DNA of 64,000 nucleotides. Source: Novosphingopyxis baekryungensis DSM 16222. GTDB lineage: Bacteria > Pseudomonadota > Alphaproteobacteria > Sphingomonadales > Sphingomonadaceae. The stretch's first letter is position 1. Each line of letters begins with the position of its first letter. A program made the position numbers and the translations under genes. The notes beneath the pieces are model-generated. The model was not told where the DNA came from and did not search any database. It saw only the letters and a program-made list of their open reading frames with translations. Location: assembly GCF_000420305.1 (NCBI RefSeq), contig NZ_ATUR01000003.1, positions 310,001-374,000 of the forward strand, in the 5' to 3' direction. Shown one piece after another: positions 6,384 through 32,288 of this stretch.

Positions 6384-7316
6384 TCAACCTTCGGAAGCGG
6401 CCTTGCGTGCGTCGATCTGCCGTCGTCCATCGACCAGCGCGGCTTCCATCTGGCTCTTGCCGGCCTCTGTCAGCAGGGTGATCGACATGCGGCGGTTGCG
6501 CGGATCGGCGGCATCGGCCGGATTGAATGGCTGCCGGTCAGACACGCCTTCTATCTTGTCGAAGCGCTTCTCGCTCAGTCCGCCTGCCATGAGCGCCTGC
6601 CGCGTCGCTTCCGCGCGGGCGGCAGACAGCAGCCAGTTGTTCATCGTCTTACCGGACGCATAGGGCAGGCTGTCGGTATGACCGCGCACCGCAATGGCAT
6701 TGGGAAGTCCGTCGATCGATCCGGCTACGGCCTGCAGCAGCTTGGTGGCGCGCGGGATCAACGCATCGCTGGAAAGCTTGAACATCGCAAAGTCGGCGGC
6801 ATCCACCACTTCGATCCGCAGTCCTTCGGGTGTGCGGATGAAGCGGATATTGTCGGCCAGTTTGCGCAGTTCGGCTTCCTTGTTCAGCTGATCGCGGATT
6901 TCCTTCTCGATCTTGTCGAACTGTTCCTTTTCCTGCTGCCGAACCAGCTCATCGCGGCCGTCCTTGCTGCCAGTCGCATCCTGCGGGATCGTCATGGTGC
7001 GGGTGCCGGTCTGGCCGGCCGCGTGCGGATAATCCTCACGCGACATGATGGACTCGCCGCCGAAGGGACCGTTTGATCCCGCGCTGCCCTCTTTCATTTC
7101 CATCAGCGTGGGCGCGAAATAATCCGCGATGCCCTTGCGCTGGTCCTCATCGGTTGCACCAAGCAGCCACATCAGAAGAAAGAACGCCATCATGGCCGTC
7201 ACGAAGTCGGCATAGGCCACTTTCCACGCCCCGCCATGGTGACCGGCATGGTCGTCGGCGATGATTTTCTTGATGATGATCGGGCGCTGATTGGCCGCGT
7301 CTGCCTTGCTCGCCAT
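6384..7316 (-). CDS. motB: Flagellar stator protein MotB
   Basis: A 310-aa MotB. A basic cytoplasmic tail is followed by a single membrane helix (about 33-52) beginning with the proton-carrying aspartate, Asp37 in YADFVTAMMAFF. A periplasmic linker of about 90 residues and a charged helix follow, then the OmpA-like peptidoglycan-binding domain with AVRGHTDSLPY and NNWLLSAARAEATRQAL. It anchors the MotA4-5/MotB2 stator to the cell wall. The gene starts 3 bp after motA stops; both should be transcribed from the FliA-type promoter at 8264-8290. Confidence 0.95.
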   Translation of the reverse strand: MASKADAANQRPIIIKKIIADDHAGHHGGAWKVAYADFVTAMMAFFLLMWLLGATDEDQRKGIADYFAPTLMEMKEGSAGSNGPFGGESIMSREDYPHAAGQTGTRTMTIPQDATGSKDGRDELVRQQEKEQFDKIEKEIRDQLNKEAELRKLADNIRFIRTPEGLRIEVVDAADFAMFKLSSDALIPRATKLLQAVAGSIDGLPNAIAVRGHTDSLPYASGKTMNNWLLSAARAEATRQALMAGGLSEKRFDKIEGVSDRQPFNPADAADPRNRRMSITLLTEAGKSQMEAALVDGRRQIDARKAASEG

Positions 7317-7319
7317 CGG

Positions 7320-8183
7320 TCAGCGCGCCCGCAGACCGTCAAACACATCGGCAAAGCTCGGCTGGTTGGCATGGTCCAGACCGGAACGCGCCGCTTCGAT
7401 TACCAGCGGCTGCGGATGGCCGTGCAGGCTGGCAATGATGATCTGCTTGGCAACCTCGTAGATCTTGTGATCTTCCTCGACGATCGCCTTCACGCGGTTC
7501 GCCATCGGGCCAACGATGCCATAAGCAAGCAGCACGCCCAGAAATGTGCCGACCAGGGCCGATCCGATCATTTCACCCAGAACTTCCGGTGGTTCGCTGA
7601 TGGCGCCCATGGTCTTCACCACGCCCAGCACGGCGGCCACGATACCCAGTGCGGGCAGTGCATCGGCCAGCCACTGAAGATTGTCCGCCGGGCCCATCAC
7701 GCTTTTATGATGTGTCTTGAGATGCTGATCGACCACATCTTCCACCGAATGCGGATCGAGATCGCCCGAGGATACAACTACCAGACGCAAGCTGTCGCAG
7801 ATCAGCGAAACCAGGGTCTTGTCCGCAAGCAGGCGCGGAAATTCGGCGAAGACGGCGCTGTTCTGCGGGTCTTCCACATGCGGCTCCAGCGCCACCGGCC
7901 CTTCGGAGCGCAGCATCTTCATAAGTTTGCCGCACAGGAAGATGCAGTCCAGATAGTCCTGCCGTTTGAACTTGGGCCCCTTGAACACCTTGGCAAAACC
8001 GCCGCCCAGCGCCTTGATATCCGCGCCGCTATTGCCGGTGATGATGGCCGCCAGCGCGGCGCCGCCGATGACCATCATCTCGATCGGCAAGGCGTGCAGC
8101 ACGGCACCGATATTGCCGCCGGAAATAATGAATCCGCCAAACACCATGACGATCAGGACGACTAGGCCGATTGCTGGCATCAT
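7320..8183 (-). CDS. motA: Flagellar stator protein MotA
   Basis: A 287-aa MotA with four membrane helices: two at the N-terminus (about 1-50) and two around residues 170-220 (PALGIVAAVLGVVKTMG and IGSALVGTFLGVLLAYGIVGP). The cytoplasmic loop carries the charged LRSEGPVALEPHVEDP segment that interacts with FliG in the rotor, and the conserved Pro in ADALPALG is present. The start at 8183 has an AAAGGA ribosome site 12 bases upstream; an upstream GTG at 8228 would add a polar leader unlike the family. It is the full-size stator of this cluster, in contrast to the miniature pair at 16799-17970. Confidence 0.95.
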   Translation of the reverse strand: MMPAIGLVVLIVMVFGGFIISGGNIGAVLHALPIEMMVIGGAALAAIITGNSGADIKALGGGFAKVFKGPKFKRQDYLDCIFLCGKLMKMLRSEGPVALEPHVEDPQNSAVFAEFPRLLADKTLVSLICDSLRLVVVSSGDLDPHSVEDVVDQHLKTHHKSVMGPADNLQWLADALPALGIVAAVLGVVKTMGAISEPPEVLGEMIGSALVGTFLGVLLAYGIVGPMANRVKAIVEEDHKIYEVAKQIIIASLHGHPQPLVIEAARSGLDHANQPSFADVFDGLRAR

Positions 8184-16229: not shown

Positions 16230-16577
16230 TTATTCTCCCCTGATGGCGCGTGTCAGGGTATTCACGCGCCCTTCGAGAAAGGAGAGCGTGGTGGAATAGC
16301 CGACCGCGTTCTCGGCGAAGAGGGTCTGTTCTGTGGAAAGCTCGACCGTGTTGCCGTCGAGCGACTGCTGCAGCGGAATGCGATAGCCCGCATTGGTCTC
16401 CATGGCGCCCACGGCATCCTTGCCGCCCACCACCTGCTGCATCGCCTTGTCGAAATCGAGGTCGCGGGCCTTGTATCCAGGCGTTGCCGCGTTGGCGATG
16501 TTCGAAGCGAGCATGGATAGCCGCTGCGAGCGTAGCTGCAGGGCGTCTCCGTGAATGCCGAAAATTTTATCTGCCAT
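16230..16577 (-). CDS. flgB: Proximal rod protein FlgB
   Basis: A 115-aa rod protein, first gene of the flgB-flgL operon. The start at 16577 (MADKIFGIHGDAL) has an AGGAAA ribosome site and gives the normal FlgB length; the open frame continues upstream to 16913 but that part overlaps the promoter and is non-coding. The diagnostic string is RSQRLSMLASNIANAATPGYKARDLDF. A sigma54 promoter lies at 16652-16668. Confidence 0.93.
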   Translation of the reverse strand: MADKIFGIHGDALQLRSQRLSMLASNIANAATPGYKARDLDFDKAMQQVVGGKDAVGAMETNAGYRIPLQQSLDGNTVELSTEQTLFAENAVGYSTTLSFLEGRVNTLTRAIRGE

Positions 16578-16651: not shown

Positions 16652-16668
16652 AGCAAAGGCCGTGCCAA
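16652..16668 (-). promoter_or_regulatory. Sigma54 (-24/-12) promoter of the flgB operon
   Basis: On the minus strand: TTGGCACGGCCTTTGCT. This agrees at every fixed position with YTGGCACGrNNNTTGCW. It sits about 75 bp upstream of the flgB ATG. Two CGGCAA-N4-TTGCCG palindromes lie a further 64-97 bp upstream, a standard enhancer distance. Confidence 0.88.
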
Positions 16669-16731: not shown

Positions 16732-16765
16732 CGGCAACATCTTGCCGCCCGGCAAATTTTTGCCG
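16732..16765. promoter_or_regulatory. Double palindromic upstream activator site (CGGCAA-N4-TTGCCG x2)
   Basis: Two copies of CGGCAA-N4-TTGCCG occupy 16732-16747 and 16750-16765, 18 bp apart start to start. They are between the divergent flgB and ExbB/MotA-like genes. The second copy has the spacer ATTT, and a near-identical element (CGGAAA-ATTT-TTGCCG) occurs at 42551-42566 before the second sigma54 activator gene. Binding by one of the two sigma54 activators is inferred from position and repetition. Confidence 0.6.
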
Positions 16766-16798: not shown

Positions 16799-17533
16799 AT
16801 GACGTACGAAATCCTGGGACAATATCTCGATCCGGTAGCGCTCGTCGTGGTCGGTGTCGGCTGCATGCTGGTCGCCATCGTCCAGAACGGGCTGCGCATG
16901 GCGGGCAGCGCAATGCTGGCAGCTGGCCATATGGCCGCGCCCCGCAAAAAGGCCGAACGCGCGCGCCTGTCCGTGGTGATGATCGAAGACTGCGTACGTC
17001 GGCGCGGCGTCAGCTGCGCAGATCGCGTAAAAGCCACATGCGCCTTTGCACGCAAACTCGGCATGCTCATGTCCGATGCGCCGGGATTCGAAGCCTATCG
17101 TCAGGCGACGGAACGTCTGCTGGAGGCCCAGGAAACCCAGCGCACGCGCATCGTCCAAGTCTGGAACGATATTGCCGATGCCGCCCCGGCGCTCGGCATG
17201 CTCGGGACCATTTTGGGACTGGTGCAGATGTTTGCGCGCATGGAGACGGCGGAAGGCATCGGCGGCGCCATGGCCATATGCCTGCTGACCAGCCTGTACG
17301 GGCTGGTTTTTGCGCATCTCGTCGCCGGGCCGATTGCGCGCCGGCTGGAAATGCTGGGGCGGCAGGAAGCCGACTGGCAGAACGGCATCGCGCAGCGCAT
17401 GATCGCCCTGGCACGGCGCGAATATCCCGACGGAGCAGCCAGCAGGCTGTCGCTCGTCCCCTCCGTCCAACCATCCGAACCCCAGCCGCAAGCGCAACCG
17501 CCTGACGCGCGCCGCAGAAAGGCCGTGCAATGA
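16799..17533 (+). CDS. MotA/ExbB/TolQ-family membrane protein of a second stator-like pair
   Basis: A 244-aa protein with the MotA/TolQ/ExbB proton-channel fold. One membrane helix is at about 12-30 (PVALVVVGVGCMLVAIV); two more are at about 130-185, with AAPALGMLGTILGLVQMF and GGAMAICLLTSLYGLVFAHLVAGPIARRLE, the family signature. It is shorter than MotA at 7320-8183 (287 aa) and seems to have three helices like ExbB/TolQ. The start at 16799 has a GAAGGG ribosome site. It overlaps the next gene by ATGA, is divergent from flgB, and shares its upstream activator region. Probably an ion-driven motor subunit tied to flagellar function; the exact role is unknown. Confidence 0.8.
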   Translation: MTYEILGQYLDPVALVVVGVGCMLVAIVQNGLRMAGSAMLAAGHMAAPRKKAERARLSVVMIEDCVRRRGVSCADRVKATCAFARKLGMLMSDAPGFEAYRQATERLLEAQETQRTRIVQVWNDIADAAPALGMLGTILGLVQMFARMETAEGIGGAMAICLLTSLYGLVFAHLVAGPIARRLEMLGRQEADWQNGIAQRMIALARREYPDGAASRLSLVPSVQPSEPQPQAQPPDARRRKAVQ

Positions 17534-17970
17534 CGCATAAACGCACTTTGGTAGGGTTTATCGACCTGTCGCTGATCCTGCTCGGATCTGTTGCGCTCAT
17601 CGGAGAGCTGCAGCAGTCGAAGCTCGTTTCGATCGTGCCGCCGTCACCGAAGCGGCATAGCAGCGATACCGACCATATCGAGGTCGGTATCGCCCGCCTG
17701 TTCGAACCGGACGAGGCGCGGCTTTCCACGCAGGGGCAAAGCTGGGTCCGCTATCTGGCCCGCCAGGCGGATGGGCGCCCCATCACCATTGCCGTTTCCG
17801 TCGGTGCCGATAACGAAAAGGCCCGGCTGGACAATTGGGAACGGGCGGCCGCGCGCACCGCTTCGATCATGTATGCGCTGGAAAGCGCGGGCTATCCGAC
17901 CAAACAGATCCGGCCATCCATGCCGCAAAGCAAGGCCGAGAAGGGAAAAATCATCGTCACCCTTGGCTGA
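17530..17970 (+). CDS. Miniature MotB-like protein (membrane anchor plus OmpA-like domain)
   Basis: A 146-aa partner of the preceding MotA/ExbB-like protein. A short basic N-terminus leads into one membrane helix with an Asp at its start (Asp12 in GFIDLSLILLGSVAL), the position of the ion-carrying Asp in MotB/ExbD. After only about 25 residues comes a reduced OmpA-like domain (LFEPDEARLSTQGQSWVRYLA, then SVGADNEKARLDNWERAAARTASIM). The plug and linker of normal MotB (310 aa here) are missing. The OmpA motif is imperfect (VGADN rather than GHTD), so peptidoglycan binding is uncertain. It is followed by the flgA sigma54 promoter. Confidence 0.72.
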   Translation: MTHKRTLVGFIDLSLILLGSVALIGELQQSKLVSIVPPSPKRHSSDTDHIEVGIARLFEPDEARLSTQGQSWVRYLARQADGRPITIAVSVGADNEKARLDNWERAAARTASIMYALESAGYPTKQIRPSMPQSKAEKGKIIVTLG

Positions 17971-17977
17971 TCGTTAG

Positions 17978-17994
17978 CTGGCACGGCTTTTGCT
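17978..17994 (+). promoter_or_regulatory. Sigma54 promoter of flgA
   Basis: CTGGCACGGCTTTTGCT matches YTGGCACGrNNNTTGCW at every fixed position. It begins 8 bp after the stop of the mini-MotB gene and lies 72 bp before the flgA ATG. Confidence 0.88.
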
Positions 17995-18065: not shown

Positions 18066-18611
18066 ATGACCAAGAGCAAGCTGCTTTATCTCGGCGCCGC
18101 CACGGCCCTTCTCGCCGTGGCACCTGCCGCTGCGGGAAATTTTCAGAGCCTCGATGATCTTGATGTGGCGGTGGCCGCGCACGCCGGTGCCAAGATTGGC
18201 GATCCGGGCGGGGCGCGCACGCCGATCGACCGGCGACTGAAGCTGAAAGCCTGCCCAGATGCGCCGAGCGTTTCAGGCCCGGTGCTCGGGGCCGCCGTGG
18301 TCCGTTGCGAGCCGATTGGATGGTCGATCCGGGTTCCTCTGCGCCTTGATGCAGCTACGTCCGGCGCAACCAATAGCAATAACGGTGCACCGCGAACAAT
18401 GGCGGCGCGCCAGCAGGAACGCGATGCCATCGTGCGGGGTCAAGCCGTTCGCCTGACCGTCGAAGGCCGCGGCTTCACCCTCTCGCGCACCATGATTGCG
18501 GATGCGAACGGTAAGATCGGTGACATGATTTCGGTCCGCGCGGACCGCTCGTCCAAGCCGGTTCTGGCCCGCGTCGTGGACATTGGCGAAGTATCGGTAT
18601 CCGGTATCTGA
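18066..18611 (+). CDS. flgA: Flagellar P-ring assembly chaperone FlgA
   Basis: A 181-aa periplasmic protein with a signal peptide ending near APAAAGNF. The SAF/FlgA C-terminal domain is visible in VRGQAVRLTVEGRGFTLSRTMIADANGKIGDMISVR and in the final LARVVDIGEVSVSGI. It assists FlgI polymerisation into the P ring. A conserved pair of Cys (KACPD and RCEP) is consistent with the N-terminal domain. It is preceded by its own sigma54 promoter and followed by flgM. Confidence 0.9.
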   Translation: MTKSKLLYLGAATALLAVAPAAAGNFQSLDDLDVAVAAHAGAKIGDPGGARTPIDRRLKLKACPDAPSVSGPVLGAAVVRCEPIGWSIRVPLRLDAATSGATNSNNGAPRTMAARQQERDAIVRGQAVRLTVEGRGFTLSRTMIADANGKIGDMISVRADRSSKPVLARVVDIGEVSVSGI

Positions 18612-31860: not shown

Positions 31861-32288
31861 AGAAGATACTTAAAAGTCGCCAGCGCATCCTTGGCATGCG
31901 CGAAACGCAGCTGCGCATCGCCACGGGAGACAGCGCTGCGGCGCGCGGCAATGAAAGCAGCCTAGAACAGAAGCGCACCCAGCTCAAGGCATTGGCCGTG
32001 CATATGCACAAGGCCGGTGCCCAGTGCCGCGAGGGCCGCAGCCTGCATGCGCAGCTCGAACTGGTCGATCGCCTGTGCCAGGCAGATGACAGCATGGCCG
32101 GCGCGATCGAACAGGCCCGGCAGAAAACTGCACAGATGGAGCGGCAACGGATTGCCGCCTATCAAAAACGCGAGATGGCCGATCGTCTGGTCGGCCGCGC
32201 CGCCAATGATCTGGCAACGGAGCAGGACCGCAAACTGTCCGAACAGCCCCGCGCCAAGCCGCGAAAGATGAAGGGAACGGGCCTGTGA
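31857..32288 (+). CDS. FliJ-like export protein (by position)
   Basis: A 143-aa, charged, predicted coiled-coil protein between fliI and fliK. It starts with GTG overlapping the fliI stop. Long helices (RQRILGMRETQLRIA and LDRLCQADDSM-like region, then QKTAQMERQRIAAYQKREMADRLV) resemble FliJ, the central stalk that stimulates FliI. Sequence identity to known FliJ is too low to be sure by eye. Confidence 0.6.
   Translation: MKKILKSRQRILGMRETQLRIATGDSAAARGNESSLEQKRTQLKALAVHMHKAGAQCREGRSLHAQLELVDRLCQADDSMAGAIEQARQKTAQMERQRIAAYQKREMADRLVGRAANDLATEQDRKLSEQPRAKPRKMKGTGL

Follow-up and report, generated by a model that had tools for sequence, protein, structure and literature searches.

Dual stators are known from Shewanella (PomAB and MotAB) and Pseudomonas (MotCD), and the ExbBD and TolQR motors of the same superfamily combine an A-subunit of three transmembrane helices with a B-subunit of about 145 amino acids. 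According to the accessible part of PMC12505986, flagellar stators are structurally conserved and are marked off from ExbB/TolQ-type motors by a square fold, a plug and linker and an OmpA-related domain, among other features. In the same part of that source, no OmpA homology is discernible in the B-subunits of the ExbBD/TolQR group, and R90 and E98 are given as the FliG contacts of MotA.

The window analyzed here is a stretch of 64,000 nucleotides from Novosphingopyxis baekryungensis DSM 16222. Its flagellar cluster carries a canonical motA-motB pair and, between flgB and flgA, a second pair of genes for which we coined the names sA and sB. The names MotA2/MotB2 were avoided, since MotB2 is already used for a Cereibacter protein (title of PMC10954123). 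The features concerned are:

6384..7316, minus strand: full-length canonical motB, encoding both a plug and an OmpA domain (profile matches)
7320..8183, minus strand, start codon provisional: canonical motA of the MotA1 type, in the same cluster (profile score)
16230..16577, minus strand: flgB, divergent neighbour of sA (NCBIfam/Pfam)
16799..17533, plus strand: sA, PomA-type MotA-like A-subunit of 244 aa, TM1 missing
17530..17970, plus strand: sB, short MotB-like B-subunit of 146 aa, with Asp12 in its transmembrane helix and an OmpA-fold domain from about residue 43
18066..18611, plus strand: flgA, downstream neighbour of sB (NCBIfam/Pfam)

An earlier note, made from the DNA sequence alone, had described two overlapping reading frames of 244 and 146 aa between flgB and flgA, and both were found again at its coordinates, sharing the ATGA at 17530-17533. 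The full-size motA-motB that it placed at 6384-8183 is likewise genuine, with MotA1 (TIGR03818) reaching 330.5 bits against a cut-off of 303.8 and MotB containing both plug and OmpA domains. Among the neighbouring products, FlgB (TIGR01396, 85.4 bits) and FlgC (TIGR01395) scored above their cut-offs, while FlgA and FlgM were above cut-off for one model each (PF13144 and PF04316) and below or slightly under it for the other (TIGR03170 and TIGR03824, respectively). The note's central suggestion of a second, flagellum-linked pair from the stator superfamily without a named family was borne out in the libraries searched. No description of the pair was found in the literature searched, which lay mostly outside subscription journals and included the accessible parts of PMC12505986, PMC13015449, PMC8921679 and PMC3930126.

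Distribution, flagellar linkage and regulatory sites

With the sA profile, at least 64 carrier loci in 44 genera were identified among 149 Sphingomonadaceae genomes; by score, the matches listed comprised 30 strong, 6 middle and 28 distant carriers. Dropped from this count were matches of 60-63 bits in G085, G052 and G056, as MotA1, as well as the PomA-like genes of G007, G052 and G056, which had no sB or flgA match beside them (a weak flgB-type match lay 4 kb off in L073). The removal of G013 (E 9.7e-4, 588-aa frame, no FliF) reduced 31 genomes to 30 loci. The gene order is strongly conserved: flgB adjoins sA in all 64 loci identified, sB is present in 63, the remaining locus being cut by a contig end, and flgA follows in 62, the exceptions being the same contig end and one locus without flgA in 1.4 kb. 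Both genes had low dN/dS ratios (0.06-0.39) in 8/8 species pairs, with dS saturated in several of them, and are under purifying selection. Since flgB adjoins sA throughout, sB is next in 63 loci and dN/dS is low, sA-sB is a real gene pair and not a product of chance reading frames.

FliF was present in 63 of the 64 carrier genomes, the exception (G142) being a metagenome-assembled genome (MAG) of 320 contigs, and MotA1 was found above its cut-off in 62. Among the 53 FliF-less genomes, 52 had no identified sA among the matches listed, and the sole carrier was the fragmented MAG. The corresponding Fisher p of 5e-16 is uncorrected for kinship and serves only as a guide because the genomes are related. 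Among the matches listed, the pair is not widespread outside flagellated genomes, a spread that the earlier note had named as a ground for refuting its reading. In four genera (g3, g16, g24 and g45) no sA locus was identified in the FliF-less genomes among the matches listed, while flagellated congeners keep sA. One FliF-less genome, G023, gave a single weak sA match (E 1.3e-4). A second collection of 24 loci, titled Blastomonas, Sphingomonas, Rhizorhabdus, Rhizorhapis and uncultured kin (one just Alphaproteobacteria), contained sA, sB and flgA in every case and a visible flgB in 22. Some of its genomes are shared with the set of 149, and the scan favours this family because it used one sB peptide pattern.

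The pair is accessory and dispensable, as in three FliF-bearing genomes (G005, G105 and G118) flgB directly adjoins flgA and sA-sB is absent. Among the 33 FliF-bearing genomes without an identified sA among the matches listed, 23 regions of 21 genomes were examined, and in those of genomes other than the ones named here the junction lay outside the stretch examined or was not recognised. In G085 the slot between flgB and flgA (L181:10755-12235) is occupied by an LPP20-family protein and a FlgT_N protein where sA-sB would be expected, so that it resembles a site for motor accessory genes. G019 contained a very weak sA-like frame (E 1e-3) with no sB match, and in G030 flgB was found with no flgA or sA match. 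Locus L082 (G036) has a decayed-looking flagellar region, with flgB in two overlapping frames, a partial FliF and no MotA1; its sA and sB frames are open. Five genomes (G006, G021, G043, G071 and G123) had two full-length FliF matches each at separate places, which suggests that they carry two flagellar systems.

The regions flanking sA and sB in the window contain the following sites:

16653..16667, minus strand: sigma-54 type site TGGCAC-N5-TTGC toward flgB (perfect match)
16732..16747, no strand assigned: palindrome CGGCAA-N4-TTGCCG, the first of two in tandem before sA (motif search)
16750..16765, no strand assigned: second palindrome of the tandem pair (motif search)
17979..17993, plus strand: sigma-54 type site before flgA, close behind sB (motif search)

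Allowing up to one mismatch, the sigma-54 site toward flgB was found in 29/29 relatives, compared with 1% of shuffled regions having a site on either strand, and no such site toward sA was found in any of the 29. The site before flgA occurred in 25/29 relatives at the same stringency, and in 22 it lies no more than 25 bases from the sB stop; the shuffle control covers the flgB-side sites and the palindromes. Palindromes of the form CGGCAR-N4-YTGCCG begin 21-106 bases before sA in all 29 relatives and form a tandem pair in 24, an arrangement present in 0.7% of shuffled regions. They are likely to be regulator sites. Besides the two before sA, the window contains further copies at 32142 and 35633. 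Since the sigma-54 sites serve flgB and flgA, none points toward sA and the palindromes precede it, sA-sB looks like a transcription unit of its own between two sigma-54 operons, with its start overlapped by likely activator sites. In Caulobacter, FlbD acting at ftr sites activates middle genes and represses early ones (PMC3930126, accessible part). By analogy, we infer that the palindromes may bind an FlbD-like regulator and that a Caulobacter-style control may operate here. Sigma-54 regulators are present in the window, none of them above the FlbD cut-off.

Ancestry and structure of the two subunits

The earlier note had called the larger protein MotA/ExbB/TolQ-type. The superfamily assignment holds, with sA reaching 64.4 bits against the PF01618 MotA_ExbB model (cut-off 22.9), while the suggested likeness to ExbB does not hold as a matter of descent, sA being a PomA-type protein that has lost TM1. 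The closest solved structures to sA were PomA chains, with residues 6-197 aligning to PomA 26-218 across one small gap. Its AlphaFold model (pLDDT 87, 25 alignment rows) superimposed on residues 18-229 of PomA from the Vibrio Na+ stator PomAB (PDB 8brd) with Z 17.9 and an rmsd of 3.1 over 207 residues at 27% identity, compared with Z 13.7-16.0 for MotA chains, 13.1 for the best ExbB and 12.1 for TolQ. Hydrophobic stretches cover approximately residues 5-34, 128-146 and 153-180, and the model places helices 32-44, 48-69, 71-76 and 82-93 between the first transmembrane helix and helix 97-146. In L086, a full PomA-type relative, the hydrophobic stretch at the N-terminal start is double. Since the PomA alignment begins at residue 18-26, sA has a single hydrophobic stretch at its start and no extra one was found in the in-frame DNA upstream, TM1 has been lost. 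sA is thus a PomA-type A-subunit without TM1, with three transmembrane helices and a cytoplasmic domain of PomA size.

The PomA model matched all 30 aligned sA proteins at E 0.001 or better. On the other hand, sA stayed below the cut-off of every stator equivalog that it matched, e.g. PomA NF006527 with 95.6 bits against 341. In a quick, unrooted tree of 89 A-subunits, sA and its relatives group with the PomA-type proteins that other alphaproteobacteria carry, while distant long branches hold the MotA1 of the cluster itself and the TolQ/ExbB rows; the MotA1 and TolQ/ExbB rows are mostly less than half filled, the long branches meet, the central branch is weak (64), and nearness alone was used. 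The model scores and the tree place sA with the PomA types, and an origin as a duplicate of the cluster's own motA is rejected. Descent from ExbB is rejected as well, PomA being nearer in sequence, in model Z score and in the tree.

PomA-type genes also occur beyond the family. The sA profile recovered 28 loci from the class with PomA-type A-subunits and no flgB or flgA match beside any of them; one was adjoined by a full MotB and one by a 415-aa MotB-like frame. Similarly, 20 loci from other families of the order had no flgB, flgA or sB match beside the PomA-type gene, and an FlbD-like gene adjoined the A-subunit in all 20, which are 20 of the non-family matches. Many alphaproteobacteria (L086-L113 in the class and L208-L227 in the order) possess a full-length PomA-type MotA gene that has no visible MotB neighbour, the adjoining FlbD-like gene of the order loci encoding a sigma-54 regulator. 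In a sample of 385 genomes of the class, the matches to the sB profile beyond the family fell in frames of 222-559 aa and did not exceed 52.4 bits, with 7 to 9 candidates scored per genome in the class searches. A diverged short form of sB may exist outside the family, since the same profile missed three known distant-lineage carriers in the class sample (G014, G041 and G103). No place covering 80% of the query was found in plasmid records.

The smaller protein, sB, was modelled (pLDDT 81) as a transmembrane helix at residues 3-32 containing Asp12, followed by an OmpA-fold domain from about residue 43 that aligned to OmpA domains with Z 13.4 over 99 residues and to H. pylori MotB with Z 12.5. 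The membrane Asp12 pointed out earlier indeed lies inside the N-terminal hydrophobic helix and is invariant in the 30-row alignment. From this Asp to the first OmpA strand, the window sB has 46 residues and the window MotB 142. The distance was 43-54 residues in 46 of the 48 sB measured; these are drawn from 54 rows, six of which were unfit for the search expression, with 5 middle-lineage and 28 distant sB lying outside the set. Two genomes of one genus (L032 and L033; g25, 2.1 Mb) have 99 and 102 residues instead, a linker longer by about 50. The Pfam MotB_plug model matched 23 of 30 aligned sB at E 0.01, and 37/48 have a Phe at a distance of 30 residues from the Asp, where the plug segment of the window MotB has one too; the window sB and its three closest relatives (L006-L008) are without this Phe. 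The statement that the protein lacks the plug/linker region is therefore correct for the window sB and wrong as a generalisation with respect to the plug, while the short linker is near-universal.

The OmpA-like domain, which the earlier note had considered reduced, keeps its fold in the window sB, although its score against the OmpA profile (18.6) is under the cut-off of 27.2. The OmpA model matched 28 of 30 aligned sB at E 0.01 and none of the 11 sB proteins from the distant lineage, which profile comparison ties to sB (probability 79, E 1.7e-5 for the pair). An Arg occupies the OmpA wall-binding place in 30/30 sB, and an Asp precedes it by 15 residues, the spacing seen in OmpA, in 17/30; in OmpA both residues serve in wall binding. 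A reduction is therefore apparent in the partial retention of the wall-binding Asp and in the loss of the match from one large lineage.

Four positions of the A-subunit (P130, T137, T/S165 and P178), which we take to be ion-channel positions of TM3 and TM4, did not vary except for Thr/Ser exchange in 92/92 proteins (30 of the window type, 6 middle, 28 distant and 28 PomA-type); the channel Pro and Thr are kept in the PomA-type relatives as in sA. The transmembrane Asp of sB was invariant in every set aligned (30/30 and 25/25, which overlap, as well as 11/11, 17/17 and 5/5). Position 75 of sA aligns with PomA 96 and is presumably the MotA E98 site. It is acidic in 30/30 proteins of the window lineage, 6/6 of the middle and 13/28 of the distant lineage, a loss that proves little alone because the PomA-type relatives also keep the acid in just 13/28. 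At position 67 (the PomA R88/MotA R90 site), Arg or Lys was found in 6/30 window-lineage sA versus 24/28 PomA-type relatives, and 27/30 window-lineage sA have an Arg or Lys two places beyond it. In these alignments, the channel residues and the sB Asp are fixed in every lineage while rotor-face and wall-binding residues vary, which suggests a need for ion flow and an output that depends neither on a single MotA-like contact with FliG nor on an anchor in the peptidoglycan.

Comparison with described motors and possible functions

Compared with PomAB, the pair resembles its closest relative in the A-subunit from PomA residue 18-26 on but differs by the missing TM1, by the low PomA score and by a B-subunit that has 146 aa and a very short linker. 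With the canonical MotAB of the cluster it shares the superfamily, the flagellar location, the transmembrane Asp and, in most measured sB, a plug-like helix. sA is nevertheless far from MotA in the tree (a statement of distance only, as the MotA1 rows are gappy), and the spacing from Asp to strand separates sB from MotB. The number of three transmembrane helices for the A-subunit and the size of approximately 145 aa for the B-subunit are shared with ExbBD/TolQR, whereas the lower Z scores with ExbB and TolQ and the OmpA fold of sB are not in keeping with that group; neither a condensed cytoplasmic domain of two or three helices nor a B-subunit without OmpA homology was found in sA-sB. ZorAB of the Zorya system belongs to the same superfamily, but ZorA models aligned to sA at Z 8.2 or less, and a defence-system reading is rejected, with 0 PADLOC families found for sA and sB. 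Of the flagellar marks in the accessible part of PMC12505986, the square fold of four transmembrane helices is absent from sA and the long plug plus linker from sB. Because these two features were tested and not found, we do not file sA-sB in the flagellar stator family, although it may still work like a stator.

We favour the reading that sA-sB is a flagellum-dedicated, ion-driven stator derivative that acts as an auxiliary unit at the motor alongside the normal MotAB, because the channel is fixed while the rotor face and the wall anchor are free to change, and we place about half of our belief in it. Within the MotAB/PomAB/ExbBD superfamily, the pair would make up an ion-driven unit, probably with five sA around two sB. 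It descends from a PomA-type stator A-subunit, on which sequence, model and tree agree, and has lost TM1, and the sB linker is very short. Judging by the kept channel residues, ion flow past the sB Asp would make the sA ring rotate, in line with the rest of the superfamily. The likeliest output would be at the flagellar base, where the cytoplasmic domain of sA may meet FliG or another rotor-proximal protein and add an auxiliary, low-torque or regulating input, and sB would be held near the membrane or by another basal-body part and not by a long reach to the peptidoglycan. The flgB-sA location, the co-occurrence with FliF, the PomA type of sA, the kept channel, the sB Asp and the acid at position 75 in two lineages all argue for such an auxiliary unit, while the scarcity of Arg or Lys at the R90 site, the broken square fold and the dispensability of the pair argue against it.

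The pair might instead have left the rotor and become a flagellum-dedicated energiser of stator descent, powering basal-body building or wall remodelling in the periplasm near the rod and P-ring by an ExbBD/TolQR-like action. The place between flgB and flgA, with a lytic transglycosylase-like gene also near, the TolR/ExbD-like size of sB and the distant lineage, which lost the OmpA match and kept the channel, would all fit. We regard this as a serious rival, though a clearly less likely one: the cytoplasmic domain keeps the full PomA size and fold, absent from ExbB/TolQ, gene neighbourhood is weak evidence of a partner, and flgA persists in FliF-bearing relatives that have no sA-sB.

Somewhat less probable again, yet also a serious rival, is a stator regulator that drives nothing and competes for or occupies MotAB sites, braking the motor or modulating it according to load, perhaps under cyclic-di-GMP control. 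The strictly conserved channel Pro/Thr and sB Asp would be hard to explain in a passive blocker, even though MotA1 stands alongside in nearly all carriers and the pair apparently has its own transcription unit. A link to cyclic-di-GMP is hinted at by diguanylate cyclase genes between sB and flgA, present in 4/4 wide-gap loci examined; GGDEF genes were sought in just these four loci of the distant lineage:

L077:4878-5813, opposite to sB: GGDEF diguanylate cyclase gene
L197:4471-5574, opposite to sB: GGDEF diguanylate cyclase gene
L198:2055-3239, opposite to sB: GGDEF diguanylate cyclase gene
L200:4932-6041, opposite to sB: GGDEF diguanylate cyclase gene

A PomA-type A-subunit with kept channel residues beside a MotA1-type stator in the same genome is also what an alternative full stator, driving the flagellum alone with another ion, would look like. 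The missing TM1, the short spacing from Asp to OmpA strand, the wall-binding Asp in little more than half of the aligned sB, and the fact that only 2/64 carriers are without MotA1 above its cut-off (the fragmented MAG and the decayed-looking flagellar locus) make this very doubtful. A non-flagellar function with the location as inherited synteny is the least credible reading, for although gene order can be inherited without functional need, sA went unidentified in the FliF-less genomes of four genera whose flagellated members keep it (among the matches listed, with the weak match in G023).

A more far-reaching and tentative proposal, to which we give clearly less than even weight, is that sA-sB is a repurposed PomA-type stator of the Sphingomonadaceae. 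It would have kept its ion-driven core while losing TM1, the linker that reaches the wall and, in a single lineage, a recognisable wall-binding domain, and would now serve the flagellar base as a second rotary unit whose output is not propulsion but assembly, braking or sensing. If true, evolution would here have taken a step back from the flagellar class in the direction of the ExbBD class. A stator-descended pair in the flagellar clusters of 44 genera breaks two of the marks of flagellar stators given in the accessible part of PMC12505986, and sA-sB amounts to a natural experiment in which the expendable parts of a stator can be studied.
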